36,440 nt of DNA from contig JACPRB010000320.1 in NCBI GenBank assembly GCA_016190155.1, positions 1 to 36,440 on the forward strand. Direction: 5' to 3'. The translations under genes were made by a program, and so were the position numbers. Below the pieces are notes generated by a model. The model had not been told where the DNA came from and searched no databases. It saw only the letters and a list, made by a program, of their open reading frames with translations. Shown here piece by piece: positions 36-32,227 of the stretch. Each line of letters opens with the position of its first letter. The first letter of the stretch is position 1. This DNA comes from Planctomycetota bacterium (GTDB lineage Bacteria > Planctomycetota > MHYJ01 > JACPRB01).

Positions 36-2036
36 TTATCTGCTCGCGACCACGTTGTCGGCACCGGCCAGCGCCGCTTCCAAGGCCTTCTGAAACTCCC
101 CGGCGTCGGCGAACCGCTGTTCCGGCAGCTTCTCCAGGGCTCGCATGATGACCTGCTCCAACGACGCGGAGATGTGCGGATTGAGCGAACTCGGCAGCGC
201 CGGCTCCGTCATGCGAATGCGCAAGGCGACTTCCCCGAACTCTCCCCCGCCGAACGGATGCTGGCCGGTCAACAACTGGTACAGGGTGGCTCCCAAGCTC
301 CAAACGTCCGACCGGCCGTCGATGCCGCGCACGTCGCCGATCACGTGTTCCGGCGACATGAACGGAACCGTCCCCTGCACCAAACCGGCCACCGTCATCT
401 CGTCGGAACCGTTGAGCGACTTGGCCAGCCCGTAATCGATGAGGTACGCCTCCCGCTTCTGCGTGACCAGGATGTTCGCGGGCTTCACGTCCCGATGCAC
501 CAGACCGCACCGGTGAAGATGATCCAACACCTCCGCCACTTGAACGATCAGCTGCACAACGTGTCGTAGGCGCGCCGGCTCGTCCAAATGGGACATGAGG
601 AAACGGTTGTACGCCCCCAAGGGCGCTCCCTCGACGTACTCCGATACGAGATAATGGCTGTGAGGCGCCTGCTCCTCGACGCCCGCCTCGTACACCACGG
701 GGATCCGCGGGTGCCTCAACGAGGCTTGAATCCGGCACTCCCGCCGGAACCGTTCCGCCACCTCGCCCTGCAGGCCCCGAACGAACTTGACGACGACCTT
801 GCGTCCCGTGCTCGACTGCACCCCCAACCACACGTCGCTGAACTCCGTGCGCGCCAACTGCCGCTGCAGCACGTATCCCTTGATCCTGGCGGCGGGAAGC
901 ATGTCGGAGACGGCCGGCTGGGGAGCGCGCTCCGTCAAGTCCCGGCGCTCGAACACCGCGTTCAGATCCTCCTCTTGGATCTCGCCGAAGGGAGCGGCCA
1001 CGCCCGCCGCCTCCAGCGTGTGCGCCAGCTCGCGCACGTTCCCAGGCCAAGCACGCGCCCGGAGCAACTCGCGCGCGCCGTCCGCGATCCGAAGAGGACG
1101 GCCGACGCGCTTCTCGAGCCCGCCGAGCAGCTCCTCCACGATGAGCGACAGATCCTCCATCCGCTCGGCGAGCGAAGGCACCTCGATCCGCAGAACGCTC
1201 AAGGCGACCTGAAGCTCTTCCTCGAGGCCCAGAGTGCCCGGCGTCTTGCCGCGCACCGTGGCGATGAGACGCACATCCTCCTGCCGGACGTTCCTCGCCA
1301 GAATCAGTTGCGCGGCGACCGGCAGCTCGTGGACATGCTCGAGGATGAGCGTCCCGCCGGCGGCCGCTTCCAGAAGCCCCCCGCGGCGGCTCAGCCGACT
1401 GTCGCCGAAGAAGACCTGCTCGAACTCGTCGCACGAAAGCCCCGAACAGTCGAAGGCGACGCACGGCCCCACCGACCGCGCGCTCCGGCGATGAATCTCC
1501 CGCGCCACAAGCTCCTTGCCCACGCCTTGCTCCCCCAGGATCAGCACGGCGCAGTCCGATCGGGCCGCCCGAGCGATGCCGTTGTATACGCGAACGATGG
1601 GGGCGGTTCGTCCGACGAGCCTCGGTTCGCGCGCGGCGGCGACCGGCCCCGCGCACCCCGACGGCTTCACCTCCAGCGCTCGCCGCACCGTCGTGAGAAG
1701 CTGATCGACCTCGATGGGCTTCGACAGATAACCGACGGCCCCGAAGTTCATCGCCTCGACCGACGTCTCCAGGTCCGCCTGCCCCGTCATGAGGACGAAG
1801 GGGACGCGCGAGGCCGCTCGCTGAAGCAACTCCAGGCCGGTCTTCCCGCCGTCCAGATATAGGTCGCTGACCACCAGATCGCACGATTCCTGTTCGAGGA
1901 TGCGCGCGCCCTCCGAGTACGCCGTGGCCTGAACGGTCTCGAATCCCGCGTTCTTCAGCAGGGTCGAGATCAACTGACCCGTATGGACGTCGTCGTCGAC
2001 GATCAGGATGCGGGCCGTAGCATGCGACACGACCAT
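36..2036 (-). CDS. Response regulator-AAA(NtrC-like, degenerate)-Ser/Thr kinase fusion
   Basis: A three-domain signalling protein of 666 aa. Residues 8-125 form a receiver with acidic pair D14/D15, phospho-acceptor D58, T84 and K106. Residues 140-345 resemble the NtrC sigma-54 activator AAA domain, with Walker A GEQGVGKE (168-175) and sensor II WPGNVREL (330-337). The GAFTGA loop is missing and Walker B reads LILEHV, where LFLDEI is expected. Residues 385-655 form an Hanks-type kinase with K417, HRDVKPAN (514-521), DYG (534-536) in place of DFG, and SPE in place of APE. No Fis DNA-binding domain is present, so transcription activation is unlikely. Phosphorelay input probably controls the kinase output (inference). 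I chose the ATG at 2036, 4 nt after the upstream stop; a TTG at 2069 would add 11 residues. Confidence 0.88.
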   Translation of the reverse strand: MVVSHATARILIVDDDVHTGQLISTLLKNAGFETVQATAYSEGARILEQESCDLVVSDLYLDGGKTGLELLQRAASRVPFVLMTGQADLETSVEAMNFGAVGYLSKPIEVDQLLTTVRRALEVKPSGCAGPVAAAREPRLVGRTAPIVRVYNGIARAARSDCAVLILGEQGVGKELVAREIHRRSARSVGPCVAFDCSGLSCDEFEQVFFGDSRLSRRGGLLEAAAGGTLILEHVHELPVAAQLILARNVRQEDVRLIATVRGKTPGTLGLEEELQVALSVLRIEVPSLAERMEDLSLIVEELLGGLEKRVGRPLRIADGARELLRARAWPGNVRELAHTLEAAGVAAPFGEIQEEDLNAVFERRDLTERAPQPAVSDMLPAARIKGYVLQRQLARTEFSDVWLGVQSSTGRKVVVKFVRGLQGEVAERFRRECRIQASLRHPRIPVVYEAGVEEQAPHSHYLVSEYVEGAPLGAYNRFLMSHLDEPARLRHVVQLIVQVAEVLDHLHRCGLVHRDVKPANILVTQKREAYLIDYGLAKSLNGSDEMTVAGLVQGTVPFMSPEHVIGDVRGIDGRSDVWSLGATLYQLLTGQHPFGGGEFGEVALRIRMTEPALPSSLNPHISASLEQVIMRALEKLPEQRFADAGEFQKALEAALAGADNVVASR

Positions 2037-2040
2037 GGCT

Positions 2041-2421
2041 TCAGGCAACCCGCTGCGCTGCCCCTCCAATGGCTTCTCTGAGATCGAACAGATCGAAGTC
2101 GCCCCTCAGGAATACGGCCGACGACAGGCAGAAGCCGGATTCCAGGCATTCCGCCAAGGGCGTCTCCGCCCCAAGCACGGGACGAATGCCTCGATGGACG
2201 AGGTGGGCTCTTATCCAAGACGCCAGCGCCGCCGCCCCACGAATCCCCCACCGCAAATCCACCACCGCCACGACGTATAAGTTCTCTTCCAGCCGCGCCA
2301 TCGCCTCGGAAAGCGACGCCGCCACGTCGCACTTGGCGCCCAGAAGCGCCAACCCGAACGGCACGAGCGCCGCGGTCTTGGGTGCATCGGTAATGACCAA
2401 CACTCTCGACACGTCCTTCAT
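2041..2421 (-). CDS. Pseudo-receiver (CheY-like) domain protein
   Basis: A 126-aa single-domain protein. The pattern is receiver-like: a first strand VLVITDAP, a hydrophobic strand VVAVVDLRWG with D55 at the phospho-acceptor position, and a final VFLRGDFD strand. The acidic pair is reduced to one Asp (D12), and the Lys-Pro of normal receivers is replaced by Arg-Gly (106-107), so normal phosphorylation chemistry is doubtful. It lies 4 nt upstream of the receiver-AAA-kinase fusion on the same strand and is surely co-transcribed with it. It may act as a partner or decoy domain for that protein (inference). The domain call rests on pattern only. Confidence 0.6.
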   Translation of the reverse strand: MKDVSRVLVITDAPKTAALVPFGLALLGAKCDVAASLSEAMARLEENLYVVAVVDLRWGIRGAAALASWIRAHLVHRGIRPVLGAETPLAECLESGFCLSSAVFLRGDFDLFDLREAIGGAAQRVA

Positions 2422-3990: not shown

Positions 3991-4527
3991 ATGCACCCGG
4001 CCCACCCGTCCGACGAAGAGATGGCCACCGCCGCCAAGCGCGGCGACCGGATGTGCCTCGATGGGCTGGTCCGGCGCTTCACGCGACCCGTCTACGCCAT
4101 CTGCCGGCAGATCCTGCGAGATTCCGCCGATGCCGAGGACGCCTGCCAGGAGGTCTTCTTGCGGCTCCTCAAGGAGCTTTCCAAACACGAAGAGGGGCGG
4201 CCCTTCGCCCCGTGGTTGTTCAAGATGACGACGAACGTCGCTTACAACTTCACCCGCTCGCGCCGGCGCCGCGCGCGCCATGAAGCCGCCGCCCAACCCC
4301 AAGAAGCTCTCACCGCTCCCCACGACGACATCGACCGCATCCGGCAGGCCATCGAGAACCTGCCCGAACGCTACGGTCTGGCCCTTCTCTACAAGTTCCG
4401 TGAAGGCCTGGCGAATGCCGACATCGCCGCGCTGCTGGAGGTCCAGCCCGACGCCGTGCGCGTCATCCTCTTCCGCGCGCTCGCCATGGTCCGGCAACGT
4501 CTCGGATCCGCGGAGGCCAAGCCATGA
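3991..4527 (+). CDS. RNA polymerase sigma factor, ECF (sigma-70 family)
   Basis: A 178-aa ECF sigma factor. Region 2 spans about residues 20-95 and contains YAICRQILRDSADAEDACQE, with the typical DAEDA(C)QEVFL core; region 4 spans 115-170, with the LPERYGLALLYKFREGL helix. It directs RNA polymerase to a regulon controlled by the overlapping downstream anti-sigma gene (stop and start overlap by 4 nt at 4524-4527), the usual arrangement for a sigma/anti-sigma pair. The ATG at 3991 has TTAGGA upstream. A TGTAAC hexamer at about 3943 could be part of an autoregulated ECF promoter, but I cannot confirm a -10 element. Confidence 0.9.
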   Translation: MHPAHPSDEEMATAAKRGDRMCLDGLVRRFTRPVYAICRQILRDSADAEDACQEVFLRLLKELSKHEEGRPFAPWLFKMTTNVAYNFTRSRRRRARHEAAAQPQEALTAPHDDIDRIRQAIENLPERYGLALLYKFREGLANADIAALLEVQPDAVRVILFRALAMVRQRLGSAEAKP

Positions 4528-6257
4528 TGCGCCACCTCGACGACGAATTGGCGACCTACTACGCTTACGGCCTGGCCGAGGACCAGGAGCGCCGGGACGT
4601 CGAATCCCACCTGCGCGAGTGCCCCGAATGCGCCGCGAAAGTCCGCACCTTCCAGGAAGAACGTCCCCAACTCGCGCAAGCCCTCGACCGTATCGCCGCC
4701 CCAGGCCTGGAAGCGCGTATCCTCCGGCCGAGACGCTTGCCACGCGGGCTCCTCCTCGCCGCGGCCGCCGCGGTCGTGATCGCGATCGGCGTCCGACTCC
4801 TCGCGCCGTCCCCGCGCGGGCTCGTTCGCGGCGAGATCGCCGTGCGCCACGGCGATCGGTGGGAGCCACAACGCGCCCCCGCGACGCTCCTCGAAGGCCA
4901 GATCTTCCGCGTGGAAGGATCGCAAACAGCCGAGATCGTGCTCGACGACGCCAGCCGCGCGACGCTCGCGCCGGGCACCTCGGCCACCTTCGGCGGCCGC
5001 CGCGGCGAACGCGCCGCCCTCGAGCTCCACGCGGGCCAAGGCCGGTTCGTCGTCACGCCGTCCAAGGAAAGGTTTTTCGTCGTCACGCCTGTCGGCACCG
5101 TCACCGTGTTGGGCACCGAATTTCTGGTCGACGTTTGGGAAGGAGAGAAGGACATGAACAAGGCACTCGCAATCGGCGCTCCGATCGCCGTCGGCGTCGC
5201 GGTCATCGTCGGCACCGTCGTGTTCCGCACCCCGCAGGGCGAGGCCCGGCTCGAGGGCGGCAAGACGGCCGTCGCGCGGACCGGCGGAGCCCCGCAAGTC
5301 CTGTCGGCGCGCGAGACGGAGCGGCTGCGCCGGGAGGTCGAGTCCCTGCGCGAACAGCTTGCGGCACAAACGGCCCGGGCCGAAACGGCGGAAGCGAAGC
5401 TCCCCGCTCCGGTCAAGCCGGAGTCGAAACAGCCGATCGATTGGAAGACGGAGCGAGGGCCGGAGTTCGAGGCCAAGCTGCGGGCGGTTGCCTGGGACAA
5501 GGGGTGCGGCGCCTTCATCCAGTACGCGTGCGAGCTCGACCAAGCCGTGCGTGAGGGCCGCCCGCCGAACCTCTCGCCCGAGAACCTCGCCGGGCTCTCG
5601 CAATTCAACCAGAAGGCAATGGAACTGGCCGACGCGCTAGGGCTGGACACAAAGGATTGGATGAACGTCTACCAGAACGAGCTCGTCCAGCAGTACTTTG
5701 CCGACGCGTTCCTCAAGGTCCTGGCGGGACAGCCCCTCACCGAAGCTCAGCTCGCGAAGCTGCGGCAGATAGATCCGTTATCTTCCGAAGGGGCGAGCCC
5801 CGATGACGGCCGACTGGCGCAATTCCGCAACGGCATCCAGAAGAACCTGGCGCTCCTGACGAAGACGCGTGAAGTGCTCCAGCCCGAGCAATACGAACAC
5901 TTGGCAAACCTCGTGACGCCGACGTTCAGGCTTGGAATTCAGGGCTACGCCGAGAAGACATTCCCCGCGGATACCGCTCATCAAGGAGTCGTGACCCATT
6001 GGATGGAGACCTTCAAGCTGTCCAAGGAGCACGCCGCGACGGTCGATATCGTCGCCGCGGAATACGTGGAGCGCCTCGCGCAGGTCACGGCGCGTTACGA
6101 GAAAGACCCCACCAAGGAGCGCGAGGCGGAGCTTCGCATCAAACTCCTGGACCTGCAAATCGAGGCGGAGAAGAAGCTCGCCGACTCCCTGCCGCTCGAC
6201 GATGAGCAGAAGACGCGCGTCCTGCGGGGATCGGGCGCGGCCATCCTGCTGAAGTAA
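4524..6257 (+). CDS. Anti-sigma factor with zinc finger, FecR domain and C-terminal coiled coil
   Basis: A 577-aa membrane protein. The N-terminus has the anti-sigma zinc motif HLRECPEC (29-36), which would hold the ECF factor encoded just upstream. A transmembrane helix lies at about 75-95, followed by a FecR-like beta domain (about 100-250, including TPVGTVTVLGTEF). This domain is interrupted at 211-234 by a second hydrophobic stretch that begins at Met211. After residue 250 come a coiled coil (ETERLRREVESLREQL, about 264-280) and a helical domain of unknown function. The FecR part suggests signal sensing at the envelope. An internal ATG with its own ribosome-binding site lies at 5154, described separately. 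The start overlaps the sigma gene by 4 nt. Confidence 0.8.
   Translation: MMRHLDDELATYYAYGLAEDQERRDVESHLRECPECAAKVRTFQEERPQLAQALDRIAAPGLEARILRPRRLPRGLLLAAAAAVVIAIGVRLLAPSPRGLVRGEIAVRHGDRWEPQRAPATLLEGQIFRVEGSQTAEIVLDDASRATLAPGTSATFGGRRGERAALELHAGQGRFVVTPSKERFFVVTPVGTVTVLGTEFLVDVWEGEKDMNKALAIGAPIAVGVAVIVGTVVFRTPQGEARLEGGKTAVARTGGAPQVLSARETERLRREVESLREQLAAQTARAETAEAKLPAPVKPESKQPIDWKTERGPEFEAKLRAVAWDKGCGAFIQYACELDQAVREGRPPNLSPENLAGLSQFNQKAMELADALGLDTKDWMNVYQNELVQQYFADAFLKVLAGQPLTEAQLAKLRQIDPLSSEGASPDDGRLAQFRNGIQKNLALLTKTREVLQPEQYEHLANLVTPTFRLGIQGYAEKTFPADTAHQGVVTHWMETFKLSKEHAATVDIVAAEYVERLAQVTARYEKDPTKEREAELRIKLLDLQIEAEKKLADSLPLDDEQKTRVLRGSGAAILLK
5138..5156 (+). promoter_or_regulatory. Internal ribosome-binding site and ATG within the anti-sigma gene
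   Basis: GGGAAGGAG at about 5137-5145 is spaced 8 nt from an in-frame ATG at 5154-5156 (Met211). Translation from here would give a 367-aa protein starting with an N-terminal membrane anchor (ALAIGAPIAVGVAVIVG) followed by the coiled coil. This may mark a former gene boundary now fused, or a second translation start still in use. Confidence 0.4.
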
Positions 6258-22581: not shown

Positions 22582-23622
22582 TCAGCAGATCCGTGGCAAC
22601 TGCTCCCCGCTGAGCATATCGAGGATGCGTAGCGCCCCGATGCGGCTCTTCACGGTGACCCGGCCCCTTGGCCCTTCCGCCACGCGTCCCGCCAACACGG
22701 CCCCGTGTGCCACGCGCGTCGAACGTAAGACGGCAAGCGACCGCTCCGCCTCAGTCGCCGGCACGAAGCAGACGAATCGCCCCTCATTGGCGACATAGAA
22801 CGGATCGAGTCCCAAGATCTCGCACGCGCCGGCGACCTCCTCGCTGACGGGAATGGCGCATTCATCCATACCGATCGAAACGCCTGCAGCCTCAGCGATT
22901 TCGACGAGCGCGCTGGAGAGACCGCCACGGGTCAGGTCGCGTAGACAGTGGATCGAGATTCCCGCACGCAGAAGCTCGGAGACCGCGTCCCAAAGCGGCG
23001 CCGTGTCACTCTCGATCGTCGTTTCGAAGGAGAGTCCCTCCCGCTGAGCAAGGACAGCGATCCCGTGTCGGCCTAAGTCGCCGCTCACGAGCACGGCATC
23101 CCCAGGCCGAACGCCGGCCGGGTTGATCGCGAGCGAGTGATCCACGACACCGACCCCCGCCGTCGTGACGTAGATCCCATCTCCCTTGCCGCGATCCACG
23201 ACCTTCGTGTCGCCCGTGGCGATCGGGACATCGCCGGCCGCGACACGCATGGAATCGATCACGCGATGGAAGTCCTCGATCGAGAAGCCTTCCTCAAGAA
23301 TGAAGGCCGCGCTCAACGCCACCGGGCGGGCGCCGCACATCGCGAGATCGTTGATCGTGCCGTGCACCGCCAACTTCCCGATATCGCCGCCCGGGAAAAA
23401 GATCGGCCGCACCACGTACGAGTCCGTCGTGAAGGCGACGCGTCCCGGCACGTCGAAAACGGCCCCGTCGTGCCGCTGATCGAGAAGGGGATTGCGGAAT
23501 GCGGGCAGGATCAGCTTCTCGAGAAGCCCGTGCATCAGCCGTCCCCCGCCGCCGTGCGCGAGCCGTATTCGCTCGGAATCGACCTTGGGGACGGGGCAGG
23601 AAGACGCAACCTCTTCACGCAT
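22582..23622 (-). CDS. hypE: Hydrogenase maturation protein HypE (carbamoyl dehydratase)
   Basis: A 346-aa protein that receives a carbamoyl group from HypF on its C-terminal Cys and dehydrates it with ATP to the thiocyanate that becomes the CN ligand of the [NiFe] site. The C-terminus is the diagnostic PRIC. The body has the PurM/AIR-synthetase-type ATP fold: [48 protein letters not shown]. The ATG at 23622 overlaps the end of hypD by 8 nt; an upstream open frame is only a shadow. It is the last gene of the tightly overlapping hydrogenase operon. Confidence 0.96.
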
Positions 23623-24718
23623 GACTCGCCTCCGAGAAACGACGATACCGATAATAGGCGGCGCACGCGCCTTCGGCGCTGACCATCGTGGCCCCGAGCG
23701 GATGGTCCGGCGTGCAGCGCGCGCCGAACGCGGGGCACTCCTGCGGCTTCCTGAGGCCCTGGAGAACAAGGCCGCTGACGCACTCGCTCGATTCCTCGGT
23801 GGCCCGGCCGGCCACGCCGAAACGAACCTGAGCGTCGAACCCGGCGTACCGTTCCGAGAGAGCCAAGCCGCTTCGAGGAATCTCTCCGATCCCGCGCCAC
23901 CGCCGGTGCACGATCCGAAAGACGTCCGCGATGAGCGCCTGCGCGGGTCTGTTTCCCTCGGCGCGGACGGCGCGGGCGTAAGCGTTCTCCACCTCCGCGC
24001 GCCCCTCCTCCAGTTGCTGGATGCAGCGGCAGACGCCGTCCAGGATGTCCAGAGGCTCGAACCCGGTGATGACGATGGGCACGCGGTACTTCCTCGCCAG
24101 CGGCTCGTACTCGCCGGAGCCCATGACCGTGCACACGTGGCCGGCGGCGAGAAACCCCTGCACTCGGCGCTGCGGCGACGACACGATCGCCTCGATCGCG
24201 GGCGGCACGAGGACATGGGACACCAGGATCGAGAAGTTCGAAACCCGGTGTCGATGCGCCTCGGCCACCGCCATGGCGTTGGCGGGGGCCGTCGTCTCGA
24301 ACCCGACCGCGAAGAAAACGACCTCGCGCGCGGGGTTCGCTCTGGCCAGGGCGAGCGCGTCCATCGGCGAGTAGACCATGCGAACGTCGCCGCCGCGCGC
24401 CTTCACGGCCAGGAGATCCTCGTTCGTTCCGGGCACTCGAAGCATGTCGCCGAAGGACGCGAGGACGACGTTCGGTCGGCCCGCGATCTCGATCGCCTGG
24501 TCGATGAGTTCCACGGGCGTGACGCACACGGGGCAGCCGGGACCGTGAACAAGGGTGATCGTCGGCGGCAGCAGCTCGTCGATCCCGAAACGCACGATCG
24601 CATGCGTCTGCCCCCCGCACACCTCCATGATCGTCCACGGTCGTGTACCGGCGCGCGCGATCCGATCGGCGAGCCGGCGGGCCGCCTCCGCATCGCGGTA
24701 CTCATCGAGATATTTCAT
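23615..24718 (-). CDS. hypD: Hydrogenase maturation protein HypD
   Basis: A 367-aa iron-sulfur scaffold on which, with HypC, the Fe(CN)2CO group is built. It carries EVCGGQTHA (32-40), [11 protein letters not shown] (58-68), the C-terminal [4Fe-4S] cysteines ([20 protein letters not shown] then [11 protein letters not shown]) and a terminal segment with AEGACAAYY. The length is standard. Its start overlaps hypC by 17 nt. Confidence 0.96.
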
Positions 24719-24944
24719 CGCTCTCGATCTCCTTCAGATACTCGAAGATGCGGACCGCTTCCGCCTCGTCGATCCGGCTGATGGCGAATCCGACGTGGAC
24801 GAGCACGTAATCTCCCCGCCGCGCTTCCGGCACAAAGGCGAGATTCACGTCCTTCACGATGCCGCCGAAGCGCACCCGGCCCGATCGAGCGCCGGGTTCG
24901 TCTCCCTGGATTTCGAGGATTTCTCCGGGCACGGCCAGGCACAT
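24702..24944 (-). CDS. hypC: Hydrogenase maturation chaperone HypC
   Basis: An 80-aa small chaperone with the essential N-terminal Cys ([10 protein letters not shown]). It also has the OB-like strand pattern [20 protein letters not shown] and [16 protein letters not shown]. It shuttles the Fe(CN)2CO unit between HypD and the hydrogenase large subunit. It starts 3 nt after the hypF stop and overlaps hypD. Confidence 0.95.
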
Positions 24945-24947
24945 AGA

Positions 24948-27074
24948 TCAGCTCCAAGAAGCAGCCACGATTTGTCCGATCGCGATCCCTCCATCATTGG
25001 GCGGGATGCGCCGATGCCAATACGGCTTGAAACCGGCCGCGCGAAGCGCCGTCACGGCACGTTCCGTGAGATAGCGATTCTGGAAGCAGCCGCCGGAGAG
25101 CACCACGCGCTCCTCGCCTACCTCTCGCGCGACGGTCACGATGGCCTCGGCGAGCGTGTTGTGAAACCGCGCCGCGGCTCTGGACCGATCCGTTAGAATG
25201 GCGCGTATCATCGGCTCCCAATCGAGTACGCCGCCGCGCAGTGGGAGCGGATACCCATCGTCCGACGGCTCGGCCTCGGCCGCGAACTCCAGCGCCATCG
25301 CCGCCTGTCCTTCGAAGGCGCTGCGATCCCGCAGCCCGACGAGCGAGGCGACGGCGTCGAACAGTCGACCCACGCTCGATGTCCACGGGGAATTGACGCC
25401 CCTGCGGAGCATTCGGACCCGCGGCTCGTCCGGCAACGCATCTCCGATTTCGTAGAGCACGCCGAGCGCCGCACGACGCGGCTCTCGCGCGGCACGGTCG
25501 CCCCCCGGAAGCCGGAACGTCCGCATGTGCGCCGCGCGCGTGAACCGCCCGTTTTCCACGCGCAGGAACTCGCCGCCCCAGAGGGTGCCGTCGCTCCCCA
25601 GGCCGTTGCCGTCCCACGCGACACCCAGCACCGGGCCGTCGAGCTCGTTGTCGGCCATGCACGCGAGGACGTGAGCCAAGTGGTGCTGTACGAACACTCG
25701 TGGAAGCGACCCGCGCTCCGCGTGCCGGGACGACGCGTAGTCCGGATGAGCGTCGCACGCCACTCGAACGACAGGACTCTCATGCAACGCGACAAGGCTT
25801 TGGACGCTCTTCTCGAACGCATCCACGGCCTGACCGGTGTCGAGGTCGCCCACGTGCGGACCGAGGAAGACGTGCGACCCCACCGAGACGGCAACCGCGT
25901 TCTTCAGATGCGCGCCTGTCGCGAGAGTCCGAGGCATTTCACGTGTGAGCGTGAACGGCAACGGCGCGTAACCTCGGGCGCGCCGTAAGATGAGCTCGCG
26001 TCCCAAGACGACGCGCGTCACGGAATCTTCCACCGGTCGAACGATCGGCCGGTCGTGCATGAGGAACTCATCCGCGATCCCGCCCAAGCGCTCCATCGCC
26101 TCCCGCTCGTCGATGCAGATGGGTTCCTGGGAAAGGTTGCCGCTCGTGGCGACGACCGGGAAGCCGAGCTCCCGCATCAGGAGATGATGGAGCGGGGTGT
26201 ACGGAAGCATGGCCCCGAGATACGGATTGCCCGGCGCAATGGCCGGCGCCACTTCGACGCGTCGTCGCAGAAGCACGATCGGCGATTCGGGCGACGCCAG
26301 GAGCCTGGCCTCGACCGGCGAGACGCGGCACCACTCCCGCACCGCTTCAACCGTCGGGAACATGAGCGCGAACGGCTTCTCCTCGCGCGCCTTGCGCTCC
26401 CGCAGCCGCCGTAGGGCCGCATCGTTACGGGCATCGACGACGAGATGGAAGCCGCCGAGGCCCTTCACCGCGATGATGGCGCCGCGCCGAATCGTGTCGG
26501 CCACGTCGCGGATCGGCCGATCGAGCTTGGGCCCGCAAGCCGGACACGCGTTCGGCTGCGCGTGAAAACGCCGATCGCTTGGATCGTCGTACTCCGCCCG
26601 GCAGGCGCCGCACATCTCGAACGACCGCATGCTCGTGTTCCCGCGGTCGTAGGGCAGCGCCGCGAGGATGCTGTAGCGCGGACCGCAATTCGTGCAGTTC
26701 GTGAACGGGTAGAGGTGCCGCCGGTCGTGGCGATCGAACAGCTCGCGCAGGCACTCCCCGCACGTGGCGATGTCGGGCATGACGACGGCCGTCTTCGCGT
26801 CCGATTCGTCGCTTTCGCGGATCTCGAAGCCACGATATCCGACCGGATCGAGATGAGACGCCTCGAGACCTTGGATGAGCGCACGCGGCGGCGGCTCGGC
26901 CCGCAACCGTTCCAGAAAGGCTTCGACGCCCGCGCCTTCGATCTCGATCGTCACCCCCTGGCCGCCGTTGCGGACCCAGCCCGAGAGGCCGAGCTCGCCG
27001 GCCAGTCGATGAACGAACGGCCGGAAGCCGACGCCCTGCACGGCGCCCCGCACGTCGATCCGCAGGCGCTTCAC
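24948..27074 (-). CDS. hypF: Carbamoyltransferase HypF
   Basis: A 708-aa enzyme that turns carbamoyl phosphate into carbamoyl-AMP and hands the group to HypE for the CN ligands. Domains in order: acylphosphatase (GVGFRPFVHR, 14-23), two zinc fingers (CGECLRELFD...CTNCGPRYS and CGACRAEYDD...CPACGPK), YrdC-like (KGLGGFHLVVDARND), and Kae1-like (HHLAHV, WDGNGLGSDG, LSGGCFQNR). It is slightly shorter than the usual 750 aa but complete in motifs. Its start overlaps the hypA-like gene by 4 nt. Confidence 0.96.
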   Translation of the reverse strand: MKRLRIDVRGAVQGVGFRPFVHRLAGELGLSGWVRNGGQGVTIEIEGAGVEAFLERLRAEPPPRALIQGLEASHLDPVGYRGFEIRESDESDAKTAVVMPDIATCGECLRELFDRHDRRHLYPFTNCTNCGPRYSILAALPYDRGNTSMRSFEMCGACRAEYDDPSDRRFHAQPNACPACGPKLDRPIRDVADTIRRGAIIAVKGLGGFHLVVDARNDAALRRLRERKAREEKPFALMFPTVEAVREWCRVSPVEARLLASPESPIVLLRRRVEVAPAIAPGNPYLGAMLPYTPLHHLLMRELGFPVVATSGNLSQEPICIDEREAMERLGGIADEFLMHDRPIVRPVEDSVTRVVLGRELILRRARGYAPLPFTLTREMPRTLATGAHLKNAVAVSVGSHVFLGPHVGDLDTGQAVDAFEKSVQSLVALHESPVVRVACDAHPDYASSRHAERGSLPRVFVQHHLAHVLACMADNELDGPVLGVAWDGNGLGSDGTLWGGEFLRVENGRFTRAAHMRTFRLPGGDRAAREPRRAALGVLYEIGDALPDEPRVRMLRRGVNSPWTSSVGRLFDAVASLVGLRDRSAFEGQAAMALEFAAEAEPSDDGYPLPLRGGVLDWEPMIRAILTDRSRAAARFHNTLAEAIVTVAREVGEERVVLSGGCFQNRYLTERAVTALRAAGFKPYWHRRIPPNDGGIAIGQIVAASWS

Positions 27075-27340
27075 CCCGCCACCTCCACGTCGATGCTCCG
27101 GACAATCACGTCCTGGGCGCGCGGATCGGCGAGATCGGTCGAAACCTCGATCTCGAGCGCCGCGTCGTGGGCGGTCGTCCCGCGTGAAGCCTCCTCGAAA
27201 TGCTCGCGGAAGTGCTCCGCCGAAAAGTGCGAGAGGGCGCCCAACCAGACCCGCACGCCCTTGACCCGTTTCGCGCGTTGCTCGCGCGCCAGGGACTCCA
27301 GCTTCGCCATCAAGGCGCGCATCAGCGAGACTTCATGCAT
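27071..27340 (-). CDS. HypA-like protein lacking the zinc-ribbon domain
   Basis: An 89-aa protein. The N-terminus [11 protein letters not shown] matches the nickel-binding MHE of HypA, and the first 65 residues follow HypA. The chain lacks the two CxxC pairs that form the zinc ribbon; it contains no Cys at all. The C-terminal strand (VIVRSIDVEV) matches the end of HypA, so the zinc domain appears excised rather than the protein truncated. Normal HypA is about 113-118 aa and works with HypB to deliver nickel, and no hypB is present here. It may deliver nickel by another route or act as a scaffold. It overlaps the protease gene by 19 nt. Confidence 0.8.
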   Translation of the reverse strand: MHEVSLMRALMAKLESLAREQRAKRVKGVRVWLGALSHFSAEHFREHFEEASRGTTAHDAALEIEVSTDLADPRAQDVIVRSIDVEVAG

Positions 27341-27759
27341 GACGCCACCTCCTCCACAAGGGACGACAAGGCGCCCTCGACCTCCGCCGACAGGCCGACG
27401 CCGGCCGTGAAATCCCGACCTTCAATGCCAAAGACAAGGACACGCGCCGGGAGAGTCCCCAACGCGCGCGAGAGCTCAACGGCGTCCGCCAATCCGAGCG
27501 CGTGGGTCGAACTCTTGAAAAGCTCCCGCGGAAGGGGCGACGCGCCGGCATCGAGTCGATGCACCGTGCCCGGCGCCGCTCCCGACCAGACGGCATCGAC
27601 GAGGACCACGCCGTCCGCGCCCTTCCATTGATCCATGAGGGTCGCGAGATCGCCCTCGTGCTCCAGAGCAGCCACGCCCCGTTCTCGCAATCGACGCGCC
27701 GCGACAAGACCGGCCGCGTCATCGTGCCGGAACTCATGGCCCAGGCCGACGACGATCAT
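27322..27759 (-). CDS. [NiFe] hydrogenase maturation endopeptidase (HyaD/HycI/HoxW family)
   Basis: A 145-aa protease that removes the C-terminal peptide of the large subunit after nickel insertion. It shows [17 protein letters not shown], where Glu and Asp at the family's nickel-sensing site are present; the usual Asn of the G-x-N-x-L motif is His. It continues with VLVDAVWSG and [12 protein letters not shown] (His ligand). The start ATG at 27759 overlaps the large-subunit stop by 4 nt; an upstream extension is not needed. Confidence 0.92.
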
Positions 27760-29048
27760 GGCTCCCGCTCCACTTCGAGCTTGAGGAAGTGCGTCGCGCA
27801 CGAGATGCACGGATCATAGTTGCGGATCGCCTGCTCGCATTCGGCGCGCAGCTGGTCTGTCGGCATGTCCACGCGCGGGGCCACGTACTGCCTCAAATCG
27901 TCCTCGATCGCCTTCTGGTTTTGCGACGTGGGCGGGACGATCTTGGCGTCCTGAATGATGCCTTTCGCGTCGATGGTATAGCGGTGATAGAGGCTCCCGC
28001 GCGGGGCCTCGGTGCATGCCGTGCCCGTGGCCGCGCGGGGCTCGCACGCCACGGCCGGGACTTCCGGCGGTTCGTACTCCGCGATGACGCGGATCGCCTC
28101 CTCGAAGGCGTAGAGCATCTCGAGGGCGCGGACGATGATGCTCTCGAACGGATTGCGACACGTCGCCGCGAGCCCCACCTCTCGGGCCACCTCCTGGACG
28201 GAGGCCGGCAGCCGGTCGCGGTTCAGGTTGTAACGCGCCAGCGGCCCCGTGAGATACGCCCCGCGTCCCTTGATCACCGAGTGAAGGGCGTTCGAGTGCG
28301 CGACGTGCTCCTCTTCGAAGTGGGCGTCGTACTCGCGCGCGTGGATGTCGAGCCCCCGGCTCGAAACGAGCCGGCCTTCGTTCATGGGATATTCGGTCGG
28401 ATGTCGCAGCGCCACGAATTCGGTGTCGTGCGAGTACTCACGCATCGGGAGCGTTCGGGTCCATCGCACGTCGTCGCGGCAGGCGTCGCATCCGTGCTTC
28501 AAGCGCTCGGCGAGAGGCGCGAGCTCCTGCCGCGCCGGCACGCGATAGAAGCCTCCCACGCGGACATTGACGGGATGGATGGCGCGCCCGGCCAGAAGCG
28601 AGATGATCTCGTTTCCGAGCTTCTTGAGCTCCAGACCCTGCTGGACCAGCTTCGGATGGTCCTTGGCCATCCGGATCGCATCGGGGTAACCGAGGAAATC
28701 CGGCGCGTGGAGCATGAAGATGTGAAGCGCATGGCTCTCGATCCACTCCCCGCAGTAGATCAGGCGCCGCAGCTCGCGGATGGAGCGCGGGATCGCGACG
28801 GCGAGCGCGTCCTCCATCGCGTGAACGGCGCTCATCTGGTACGCCACGGGACAGATGCCGCAGATGCGCGCGGTGATGTCGGGCGCCTCCATGTAAGAGC
28901 GGCCGCGCAGGAACGCCTCGAAGAAACGGGGCGGCTCGAAGATCTTGAGCTTCACGTCGGCGACCCGCCCGTTCTTGATGCGAACGACCATCGCGCCTTC
29001 GCCTTCGACGCGCGCGAGATAATCGACTTTGATGGTCTTGTTCGTCAT
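27756..29048 (-). CDS. [NiFe] hydrogenase large (alpha) subunit, group 3b-type
   Basis: A 430-aa catalytic subunit carrying the Ni-Fe site. The L1 motif RICGICP (61-67) supplies C63/C66 and the L2 motif DPCISCATH (412-420) supplies C414/C417. The last 10 residues after His420 are the peptide cut off by the protease encoded next. In L1 the residue four after C66 is Tyr, where many hydrogenases have His. There is no signal peptide, so the enzyme is cytoplasmic. The gene order matches the hydBGDA sulfhydrogenases of Pyrococcus furiosus (group 3b), which exchange electrons between H2 and NADP(H). The ATG at 29048 overlaps the small-subunit stop. Confidence 0.94.
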
Positions 29049-29824
29049 GAGAGCTTCTCCTGCCGTTCGCTCTCCTCGCGGAACGCGGGCGCGTCGGAGT
29101 TGAAGTTCCGAAAGACCCGCATCACTTCGTCGCGGGACGTCCCGACTCGCGCGAACCATTCCGCGAGCGATCCCGTGTTGGGATTCTCCTTCGGGCCGAA
29201 GCAGCCGTAGCAGCCGCGCGCGTACGACGGGCAGAGGACGCCGCATCCCGTATGAGTCACCGGGCCCATGCACGGGATCCCGCGGGCGACCATGACGCAG
29301 ACGACGCCCTTGCGCTTGCAGTCGAGGCAGACGCTGTGCGGCGGCACGGTCGGCGCGGGGCCGTAAATGAACGCCGCGATGACGTCGACGAGCTGGTTCT
29401 TGTTGATCGGGCAGCCGCGCAGCTCGAAATCCACCTTCACGTGCGCGGAGATCGCCGTCGACTTCTCGAGCGTCTGAATGTATTCCGGCTTGGCATAGAC
29501 GATGGATATGAACTCCTTGACGTCGCGGAAATTCCGGAGCGCCTGGATGCCTCCGGCCGTGGCGCAGGCACCCAACGTGACGAGGAAGCGGGAGGCGGCG
29601 CGGATCCTTTGGATGCGTTCCGCGTCGTGCGGCGTCGTGACGGATCCTTCGACGAGCGACAGATCATAGGGACCTTTCACGACCGCGCTCGAAGCCTCCG
29701 GGAAGTAGGCGATCTCGACCTGACCGGCCAGCGTGAGCAGCTCGTCTTCGCACGAGAGGACGCTGAGCTGACACCCGTCGCAGGATGCGAACTTCCAGAC
29801 GGCGAGCTTCGGTTTGCGTGCCAT
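29045..29824 (-). CDS. [NiFe] hydrogenase small (delta) subunit, group 3b-type
   Basis: A 259-aa electron-transfer subunit. The proximal cluster has C15/C18 (SCDGCQ), the GACATAGG Cys and [10 protein letters not shown]. Further Cys groups [11 protein letters not shown] and [20 protein letters not shown] are consistent with medial and distal 4Fe-4S clusters. It has no Tat signal, so it is cytoplasmic. Its stop overlaps the large subunit and its ATG shares one base with the stop of the FAD/NAD(P) subunit (TGATG), showing translational coupling. Confidence 0.95.
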
Positions 29825-30660
29825 CAAATGTTCCGAATCACGAGCCAGGGTTCCAGGCGAGGGTAGGCAAACACGGGGCCGTCCTTGCAGATGAAAGCCG
29901 GCCCCAGCTGACAGTGACCGCAGAATCCGATCGCGCACTTCATGTTGCGCTCCATGGAGACGAAGAGGCGTTCGCGCGGGACGCCGCGATCGGACAGTGC
30001 TTGAACGGCGAACTTCATCATGATCTCCGGGCCGACGATGAAGGCCGACGCGCGCGAATGCTCGAAGTCGGCGCGCGGAACGAGTGTCGTGACGGGTCCC
30101 ACGGAGCCTTCCCATCCGAGCGCCGCGGCATCCACGGTGACGCGAACGTCGATGTCGCGCGCCCGCCAGCGATCGAATTCGCGAGGATAGAGGAGAATGT
30201 CCGGCGTTCGAGCTCCGATCAGGAGGGACACGCGTCGATATCGAGCCCGGTCGGCCATGATGGCGTATAGGACCGGCCGCAGCGGCGCCAAACCGATCCC
30301 GCCGGCCACGAGCACGACATCGTCGCCTTCGCACTCTCCCATGGGCCAGGCGCTCCCGAAGGGGCCGCGTACTCCGATGGCGAAGCCGGGTTTCGCCTCG
30401 CAGATGGCCCGGCTCACGGCTCCGGCGGCACGAACGGTGTGGACGATCGCCTCGCGCTGCGCCGGATCACCGCTGATCGAGATCGGGATTTCGCCGACGC
30501 CGAACACGTAGAGCATCATGAACTGGCCAGGCCGCCACGCCGGTGCTTCGGTCTCGTCGCGAGGGACCAGCTCCAGCGTGCGCGTATCCGCGGTCTCCCG
30601 GCGGTTCTTCCGCACGCGGAAGGCCGCGCTCAGCATGGGCTCAATGGGCGGCGGTTCCAT
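29824..30660 (-). CDS. Hydrogenase FAD/NAD(P)-binding (gamma) subunit, HydG/AsrB-like
   Basis: A 278-aa ferredoxin-NADP reductase-like subunit. It has an FAD-binding barrel ([21 protein letters not shown], about 43-63), an NAD(P) site [14 protein letters not shown] (117-130) and a C-terminal 2Fe-2S site C242, C247, C250, C258. It passes electrons between the hydrogenase clusters and NAD(P)H. The start is the ATG at 30660, which overlaps the last codons of the upstream cNMP-binding gene in the ancestral frame. In the sequence as given, an upstream one-base loss joins the two proteins in frame, so translation could also run from 31107 as a 427-aa fusion. Confidence 0.9.
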
Positions 30661-31107
30661 ACAGATCCAGGAGCTGCAGGCGTGCCGCCTGCAGGCGGTC
30701 CATGAACACCTGCGCGAACCGCTCATGAAGTCGTACCCCATGGCCGGATCGCGATCGCACTTGCCTCTGAGACATTCGCCGTCGAAGCTGATGGCGCGAA
30801 TCTGCTCGATCGCGCGCGCATCGAACGTCCAACGGTACGGCGGGAAGAGCCATGACCAGCCGAGGATGTCCCCGGCCTCCAGGGTCTGAAGGATGAGGGG
30901 GCCCTTCTCGGGCGCATGGAGTTCGATCGACGCCCGCCCGTGACGGATCGCGAAGAACTGATTGGCCACGTCGCCCGTCTTCGCGATGAGCTGTCCCGCG
31001 TCGAAACGCACGTTCTTTCCGCAGCCGGCGATCAGCGCTCGATAAGGCGCGCTCATATCTTTGAAGAACGGGTGCTCCGCCAGGAGCGCTTCAATGTCCT
31101 TTTCCAC
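30641..31107 (-). pseudogene. Cyclic-nucleotide-binding domain protein with apparent frameshift
   Basis: It starts at the GTG at 31107 behind the ribosome-binding site GGGAGG. The first 128 residues form a Crp-type cNMP-binding barrel (LIAKTGDVANQFFAIRHG and GDILGWSWLFPPYRWTFDA), without a DNA-binding domain. After codon 128 (30724) the similarity continues in another frame as ERFAQVFMDRLQAARLQLLD, ending at 30641. Restoring one G (ATGGAG for ATGAG) would repair the gene to about 155 aa. The present sequence instead reads on into the FAD/NAD(P) subunit. This may be a sequencing error, a true lesion, or a real fusion. The protein could sense cAMP or the like to gate the hydrogenase (inference). 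Confidence 0.75.
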
Positions 31108-32227
31108 GATTATCCTCCCGAATCGCCCGGACCTCCTCCGTGATGTCGATGCCGACCGGGCACCACGTGATGCATCGGCCGCAGCCGACGCAGCCCGACG
31201 TCCCGAACTGATCGATCCATGTGGCGAGTTTGTGCGTCATCCATTGGCGATAACGCGACAGCGTCGTCGGCCGCACGCTGCCGCCGTGGATGTACGAGTG
31301 CGCGGCGGTGAAGCAGGAATCCCATCGCCGCCGGCGTTCCGCGTGGTCGCCGGTGAGATCCGTGACCTCCTCGACGGTGCTGCAGAAGCACGTGGGGCAC
31401 ACCAGGGTGCAGTTCGCGCAGGACAGGCAGCGCGCCGCCACGTTTCCCCACCGGGGATGGTCCAGGGCGCGATAAAGGAGTTCCTTGAGGTCGGTGGTGT
31501 CCATCGCCCGCCCCATCTGCGCCACGGCGCGGTCGACCATGCGGCGGGCGGCGCGGGCGTCGCTCTCGGTCGCGGCTTGGCTCGGCAGTTCGCCCGCCAC
31601 CTCCGCGCCGCGTGGGCTTCCGACCTCGACGAGGAATTCATGGCGCCCGTCTTCGAGAATCTCCGTCAGGGCGAGGTCGTAGCCGGCCTTGGCCATCGGG
31701 CCGGTCTCCATCGAGACGCAAAAGCACGTCCGAGCGGCCTGTCCGCAGTGGACGACGACGATGAACGCGGCCTCTCGGCGCGCCTTGTAGGTCGGATCTA
31801 CGTAAGGACCCGTGAGGAACGTGCGGTCTTGCACCGCGATCGCGTTGAGGTCGCAGGAGCGTACCCCCAGGAATGCGTGCGGCGTGGCCTTCTCCCCGGG
31901 TGCCTCCGCCGTGAAGCCGTCCGGCGTGCGCTTCGCCTTCATGAGCAGCGTCGAAGGCGGAAAAAGGTACCGCTTCCACGACTGAGGGCCGGCGGTATAG
32001 CCGAAGCGTGCCTCGTCATTTCTCTTTTTCAGTCGATAGGATCCACCTTCTTGCTCGTCGGCCCAACCGATCGGGAGATCCCGTTCGGAGCGAATCTCGT
32101 CGTACACGACGGCCGCATCGCGCAGGGTCGGCCCGATGCACATATAGCCTCGTTGGCGGAGAGCGTGCAGCAGGGAATCCACACAGTTTCCAGGCGCGAT
32201 TCGGGCCACGTGGGAGACGTGAAGCAT
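31091..32227 (-). CDS. Hydrogenase 4Fe-4S (beta) subunit, HydB/AsrA-like
   Basis: A 378-aa subunit resembling anaerobic sulfite reductase A and P. furiosus HydB. The N-terminal domain contains [16 protein letters not shown] (about 119-134). The C-terminal part has two ferredoxin-like cluster sets, [17 protein letters not shown] and [14 protein letters not shown]. It relays electrons between the FAD subunit and outside donors. It is the first gene of the operon. Its ATG at 32227 has no strong ribosome-binding site (GAGG is about 13 nt upstream). Its stop overlaps the cNMP gene by 17 nt. Confidence 0.93.

Follow-up and report, generated by a model that had tools for sequence, protein, structure and literature searches.

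A single polypeptide encoded at the end of a planctomycetal contig joins a two-component receiver, a degenerate AAA+ domain of the sigma54 activator type and a Ser/Thr kinase. We consider it probable (about 0.6) that this signalling protein is real and that receiver phosphorylation is passed in it, via an AAA+ domain that neither hydrolyses ATP nor contacts sigma54, to a Hanks-type Ser/Thr kinase. The gene was studied within a window, i.e. the whole 36,440-nucleotide stretch of DNA that was analysed, and in comparison with other genomes of the phylum.

The fusion protein and its surroundings

The gene runs on the minus strand from an ATG at position 2036 to a stop codon at 38..36 and contains no internal stops. 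A sequence-only reading of the DNA had proposed a receiver, an NtrC-type AAA+ domain and a Ser/Thr kinase in this order, and both the single frame and the order of the Pfam matches agree with it (Table 1). A frameshift between the AAA+ and kinase parts was looked for and none was found: the frame is one, and the same order occurs in other genomes. Given this recurrence and the Pfam E-values, a chance co-occurrence of the domains is excluded. That two genes were united by an assembly or frameshift artefact is highly improbable: the gene does lie on a MAG contig that ends 35 bp past its 3' end, but its frame is continuous, its linkers are normal and the same architecture is found in nine other genomes.

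Table 1. Features of the fusion gene and of the cistron upstream of it (window coordinates). Pfam was run on the protein numbered from a TTG 11 codons upstream; motif positions follow the 666-aa numbering.
Feature	Position	Strand	Residues and hallmarks	Basis
Upstream cistron, weak receiver-like protein	2041..2421	-	126 aa; stop 4 bp before the fusion ATG	
Whole gene: receiver, degenerate sigma54-type AAA+, Ser/Thr kinase	36..2036	-	666 aa	Single ORF and Pfam
Receiver domain, NtrC-type	1683..2012	-	aa ~9-118; phospho-acceptor D58	Pfam PF00072 (Response_reg), 7e-20; motif positions; receiver tree
AAA+ core	1167..1622	-	aa ~139-290	Pfam PF00158 (Sigma54_activat), 3e-21, 76 bits; alignment; AlphaFold2 mean pLDDT 89 (receiver-AAA+ part); NtrC1/NtrX best PDB matches
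AAA+ lid	930..1166	-	aa ~291-369; sensor II WPGNVREL	Pfam PF25601 (AAA_lid_14), 3e-14, 53 bits
Ser/Thr kinase domain	75..875	-	aa 388-654; HRDVKPAN, DYG, glycine-free G-loop	Pfam PF00069 (Pkinase), 6e-40; AlphaFold2 pLDDT 90, pTM 0.89

The receiver has retained D14/D15/D16, the phospho-acceptor, T84 and K106 and, by these residues, looks active. As the sequence-only reading had noticed, the AAA+ domain has kept Walker A (GEQGVGKE, 168-175, with K174) and sensor II (330-337, with R335), and it has lost both GAFTGA, the whole L1 loop being deleted in the alignment with canonical activators, and the D-E of Walker B, which reads GTLILEHV (228-235) instead of GTLFLDEI (D to E, E to H). The loss had been understated, however: the sensor I asparagine is gone (IATVR versus AATN), and so are both arginine fingers (LEEELQVALSV versus FREDLFYRLNV). 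The lid is followed by the kinase, in the place where an activator carries its HTH, and Pfam detects no HTH or Fis-type DNA-binding domain in the protein, as anticipated by the earlier proposal that the kinase had replaced it. In the kinase, K417, E433, D516, K518, N521, D534 and E563 are kept, within or alongside the motifs HRDVKPAN (514-521), DYG (534-536) and SPE (561-563). DYG instead of DFG, correctly reported before, is rare (2 of the 76 kinases compared); the absence of all three GxGxxG glycines from the glycine-rich loop (LARTEFSDVW, 394-403) had been overlooked.

The receiver-AAA+ part and the kinase were folded separately with AlphaFold2, the former from an alignment of 30 activator and receiver relatives; viral contigs, among which there was no close kinase relative, contributed alignment depth to the folds only. 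Foldseek returned as best PDB matches of the receiver-AAA+ part the inactive state of NtrC1 (1ny5) and NtrX from Brucella in complex with ATP or ADP (5m7n, 5m7p); matches to the AAA+ domain only had TM scores of ~0.8 by target length, and FleQ was also among the fold matches. Alignment and modelling together thus describe a domain with few motifs left, yet predicted to be properly folded and NtrC-like.

The fusion gene is an orphan at its contig end, and a motif scan of the 36-kb window revealed no histidine-kinase gene. The upstream cistron, probably co-transcribed with it, encodes a protein that has no Pfam match and resembles response-regulator receivers weakly. One clear paralogue of it is present in the genome (39% identity; contig C132, 4561-4899, minus strand, in locus L048) and adjoins two kinase genes, so that this small Pfam-less family lies twice beside Ser/Thr kinase genes in the same genome. 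Elsewhere in the window, translations inspected by eye point to an apparent NiFe-hydrogenase cluster (22582-32227, minus strand), with HypE-, HypD- and HypF-like genes and genes resembling those of the large, small, flavin and iron-sulfur subunits, and to an ECF sigma factor-like gene that overlaps the gene of a large zinc-finger/FecR-like anti-sigma protein (3991-6257, plus strand).

The source genome, a 4.49-Mb MAG that is 88% complete, contains 35 sigma54-domain matches and more than 100 kinase matches. Two further genes in it encode GAFTGA-less AAA+ domains, in proteins whose C-termini both look DNA-binding; by eye, one appears to be a receiver-AAA+-HTH protein (L051:788-2185, plus strand) and the other to have an FHA-type N-terminus, an AAA+ domain and an HTH (L048:7075-9228, minus strand). 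Judging from these genes, GAFTGA loss is recurrent in this genome.

Related proteins in the phylum and their origins

No full-length three-domain orthologue was found in 59 relatives or in the class of the window genome. When 392 genomes of this phylum were scanned, a single collinear match turned up, in genome G203, where two tandem receiver-AAA+-kinase genes are followed by a gene for a hybrid histidine kinase. A profile built from the three receiver-AAA+-kinase proteins was then used to search the phylum; it retrieved full-length receiver-bearing relatives in six genomes (G073, G382, G085, G283, G091 and G125). In G162, G133, G085 and G125 it also retrieved AAA+-kinase proteins that begin differently, their N-termini being identified by Pfam as protoglobin (two), PAS and STAS domains. 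Besides the window protein, at least 12 sensor-AAA+-kinase proteins thus come from 9 genomes, which belong to seven family-level groups; the counts are lower bounds because the scan scored 3-6 candidates per genome. Within families, the distribution of the genes is patchy. The phylum is probably Planctomycetota: 77 of 294 of its genomes, G203, G073 and G085 among them, contain the target of the Pla46 probe, and the reversed pattern used as control occurs in none of the genomes listed; the window genome itself has no copy of this site. Two other apparent matches dissolved on inspection: that of a Planctomycetaceae MAG (L041, residues 9-652) combines a hybrid histidine kinase with a separate kinase gene, and in that of Rhizobium jaguaris H1 (residues 109-652) the activator carries GAFTGA and the kinase is encoded by a neighbouring gene of its own, with a ClpV-like gene alongside.

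In all 12 proteins the AAA+ domain precedes the kinase, while the sensor in front is a receiver, a PAS, a protoglobin or a STAS domain; a constant AAA+-kinase order behind interchangeable sensors is as expected of a relay. The catalytic motifs of the AAA+ domain have almost vanished from this lineage: the Walker A lysine and GAFTGA are absent throughout (0/12 each), the D-E of Walker B survives in one protein, the sensor II arginine in two and each arginine finger in one. The domain itself persists, as does the lid loop P(S)LxER(R)EDIP; the motif counts thus indicate that the lineage has retained the AAA+ domain and not its ATPase. The AAA+ domain of the window protein is less degraded, and its C-terminus is devoid of the W..WW extension that follows the kinase in lineage members. 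With the window protein included, no AAA+-kinase fusion carries GAFTGA (0/13); among the relatives, only proteins with a DNA-binding domain have GAFTGA or GAFTDA, the latter a tolerated variant (PMC4641369).

A HisKA-HATPase hybrid kinase, in several cases with Hpt domains, lies next to five of the seven receiver-bearing loci and to none of the four loci with other sensors (Fisher p 0.045, from small numbers and post hoc). Such neighbours would fit a phosphorelay feeding the receivers of the lineage. As to individual members, the two protoglobin-AAA+-kinase proteins (L095:1743-4208 and L096:5116-7308, both minus strand) are possible oxygen-controlled Ser/Thr kinases, and in the G203 tandem pair the first protein (L059:6076-8118, plus strand) has HRDVRPAN, with arginine for lysine, and its G-loop is broken; it may serve the second protein as a pseudokinase partner.

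The window protein and the lineage differ in the ancestry of their kinases. In the kinase tree, the window kinase is sister (100/99) to that of a receiver-kinase protein from genome G010 (contig C190; L050:3081-4445, minus strand), far from the 12-protein lineage, and an AU test rejects a single clade of window and lineage kinases (p-AU 0.0004). The receiver tree likewise groups the window with G010 (100/98, on long branches) and places the lineage receivers elsewhere. In the AAA+ tree, the lineage forms one clade (99/99) with the window domain outside it, on a long branch (1.77), although forcing it into the lineage is not rejected (p-AU 0.34). A common origin is thus rejected on the kinases, and the AAA+ domain alone does not reject it; with the kinase evidence, the sensor-AAA+-kinase fusion probably arose twice.

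With modest support (85/63), the window AAA+ domain falls next to receiver-AAA+-HTH regulators that have GAFTDA or lack GAFTGA. In the simplest history, an NtrC-type regulator already drifting away from sigma54 would have swapped its HTH for a kinase, and the G010 protein would later have lost the AAA+ domain; insertion of an AAA+ domain is a possible alternative. A clade of receiver-AAA+-HTH regulators with GAFTDA (L052, L022 and L054-L058, family f18) includes two members, L052 and L022, in which the motif or the whole loop is gone, a possible stepwise departure from sigma54.

A proposed relay without ATP hydrolysis and its alternatives

The best reading, in our view, is that the AAA+ domain has become a pseudo-ATPase, a scaffold or relay through which a sensor governs a Ser/Thr kinase. 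The phosphate would reach the receiver from a histidine kinase or from a small phosphodonor; by analogy with NtrC1-type activators, phosphorylation would alter the dimeric or oligomeric arrangement of the receiver-AAA+ part, which in turn would set the proximity or orientation of the kinase domains, so that these meet for trans-autophosphorylation or are drawn apart. The output would then be the Ser/Thr kinase instead of DNA binding. We infer accordingly from the layout that the receiver controls the kinase and that the AAA+ domain acts by assembly and does not hydrolyse ATP. The loss of the arginine fingers disfavours a canonical ATP-driven ring, so assembly may differ from that of NtrC.

In favour of this relay, a dead AAA+ domain is flanked by an intact receiver and intact kinase catalytic residues, and the layout probably has two independent origins; the absence of a histidine kinase from the window, the G010 protein without an AAA+ domain and the lack of a full-layout orthologue in the genomes searched that are close to the window's own count against it. 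The two-component input to Ser/Thr phosphorylation put forward in the sequence-only reading is supported by the receiver, by the catalytic residues of the kinase and by the hybrid-kinase neighbours of related genes. Its other suggestion, that the AAA+ part was kept for ATP binding or for assembly, fared unevenly: the predicted intact fold with its motifs lost supports a non-motor module, whereas ATP binding does not hold as the general reason for keeping the domain, because the Walker A lysine is missing from each of the 12 proteins in the other lineage.

The latter point bears on the most serious alternative, in which ATP or ADP is bound, but not hydrolysed, at Walker A and sensor II, and the kinase is gated by nucleotide binding and not by the phosphorylated receiver alone. 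We regard this as rather unlikely, even though GEQGVGKE and R335 are intact in the window protein while Walker B, sensor I and the arginine fingers are gone, and even though there is a precedent, the GAFTGA-less activator NtrC of R. capsulatus, for which ATP binding, and not hydrolysis, is stated to count (PMC10274813). Nucleotide binding is no general need of the layout, and the Walker A of the window protein may only reflect a younger fusion; ATP binding would be at most a feature of this protein. The AAA+ domain could instead be a passing relic, decaying after a receiver-AAA+ regulator was fused to a kinase, with only the receiver and the kinase mattering. The long branch of the domain is compatible with this, as is the G010 protein, the closest kinase homologue, whose receiver groups with that of the window and which implies that the AAA+ domain is not indispensable in this lineage. 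We give this reading little credence, since the window domain has an open frame and a fold predicted intact at high confidence, and since an independent lineage has kept a dead AAA+ domain in combination with four sensor types and in seven family-level groups.

The output, finally, may be questioned. With a glycine-free G-loop, the kinase might be weak or inactive, and both members of this kinase lineage (window and G010) carry RTxFSxVW and DYG; the kinase domain would then be an inactive binding module. This, too, seems unlikely to us: the full set of catalytic residues is kept, the kinase fold is predicted well, and DYG by itself is compatible with catalysis. Extending the relay reading from the window protein to the phylum, we propose more tentatively, and with slightly more doubt than belief, that the dead sigma54-type AAA+ domain is a reusable relay module in Planctomycetota that came at least twice, independently, to stand between Ser/Thr kinases and exchangeable sensors; there, with no hydrolysis of ATP, it would translate the state of the sensor into kinase assembly and provide a direct route from histidine-kinase phosphorelay to Ser/Thr phosphorylation.

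Known systems and significance

Sigma54-dependent response regulators of the NtrC/NtrX/ZraR type (group I bEBPs) share with the window protein the succession of receiver, AAA+ core and lid, and its nearest sequence relatives are receiver-AAA+-HTH regulators (39-43% identity). Unlike them, it has no GAFTGA, Walker B D-E, arginine fingers or HTH, and its output is a Ser/Thr kinase. GAFTGA-less bEBPs are known, namely NtrC of Rhodobacter and Caulobacter and VpsR (PMC10274813); they too lack the L1 motif, hence no sigma54 contact is expected, but they keep the DNA-binding domain and act at promoters. Among Hanks-type bacterial Ser/Thr kinases, PknB and PknA are the best PDB sequence matches of the window kinase, which differs from them in its glycine-free G-loop, its DYG, its receiver-AAA+ input and the absence of PASTA domains. 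The G010 receiver-kinase, its closest kinase relative (46% identity), has in common with it DYG, the RTxFSxVW loop and the receiver motif LDxGKTGLxLL; in place of the AAA+ domain it has a short four-cysteine linker, and its receiver is degenerate.

A survey of planctomycetal Ser/Thr kinases reports 105 accessory domain groups and 307 architectures and considers that similar architectures may have several independent origins (PMC11032199); its main text names WD40, TPR, FHA and other domains and makes no mention of a receiver or a sigma54-type AAA+ domain with a kinase. No description of the receiver-AAA+-kinase layout was found in the literature searched, which lacks most subscription journals. 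GAFTGA-less activators and varied planctomycetal kinase architectures were already known; to these the present analysis adds the recurrence, in front of kinases, of sigma54-type AAA+ domains that are dead as ATPases.

Histidine-kinase and Ser/Thr-kinase signalling are usually studied apart and meet on shared substrates; here they come together in one polypeptide, and they are connected by what was once the ATPase of a transcription activator, now without its motor parts. That the arrangement recurs independently, behind sensors of four kinds, suggests a capacity of the sigma54 AAA+ fold to act as a general conformational relay. Such fusions would also form a concrete class of pseudo-AAA+ proteins whose output can be measured as kinase activity.
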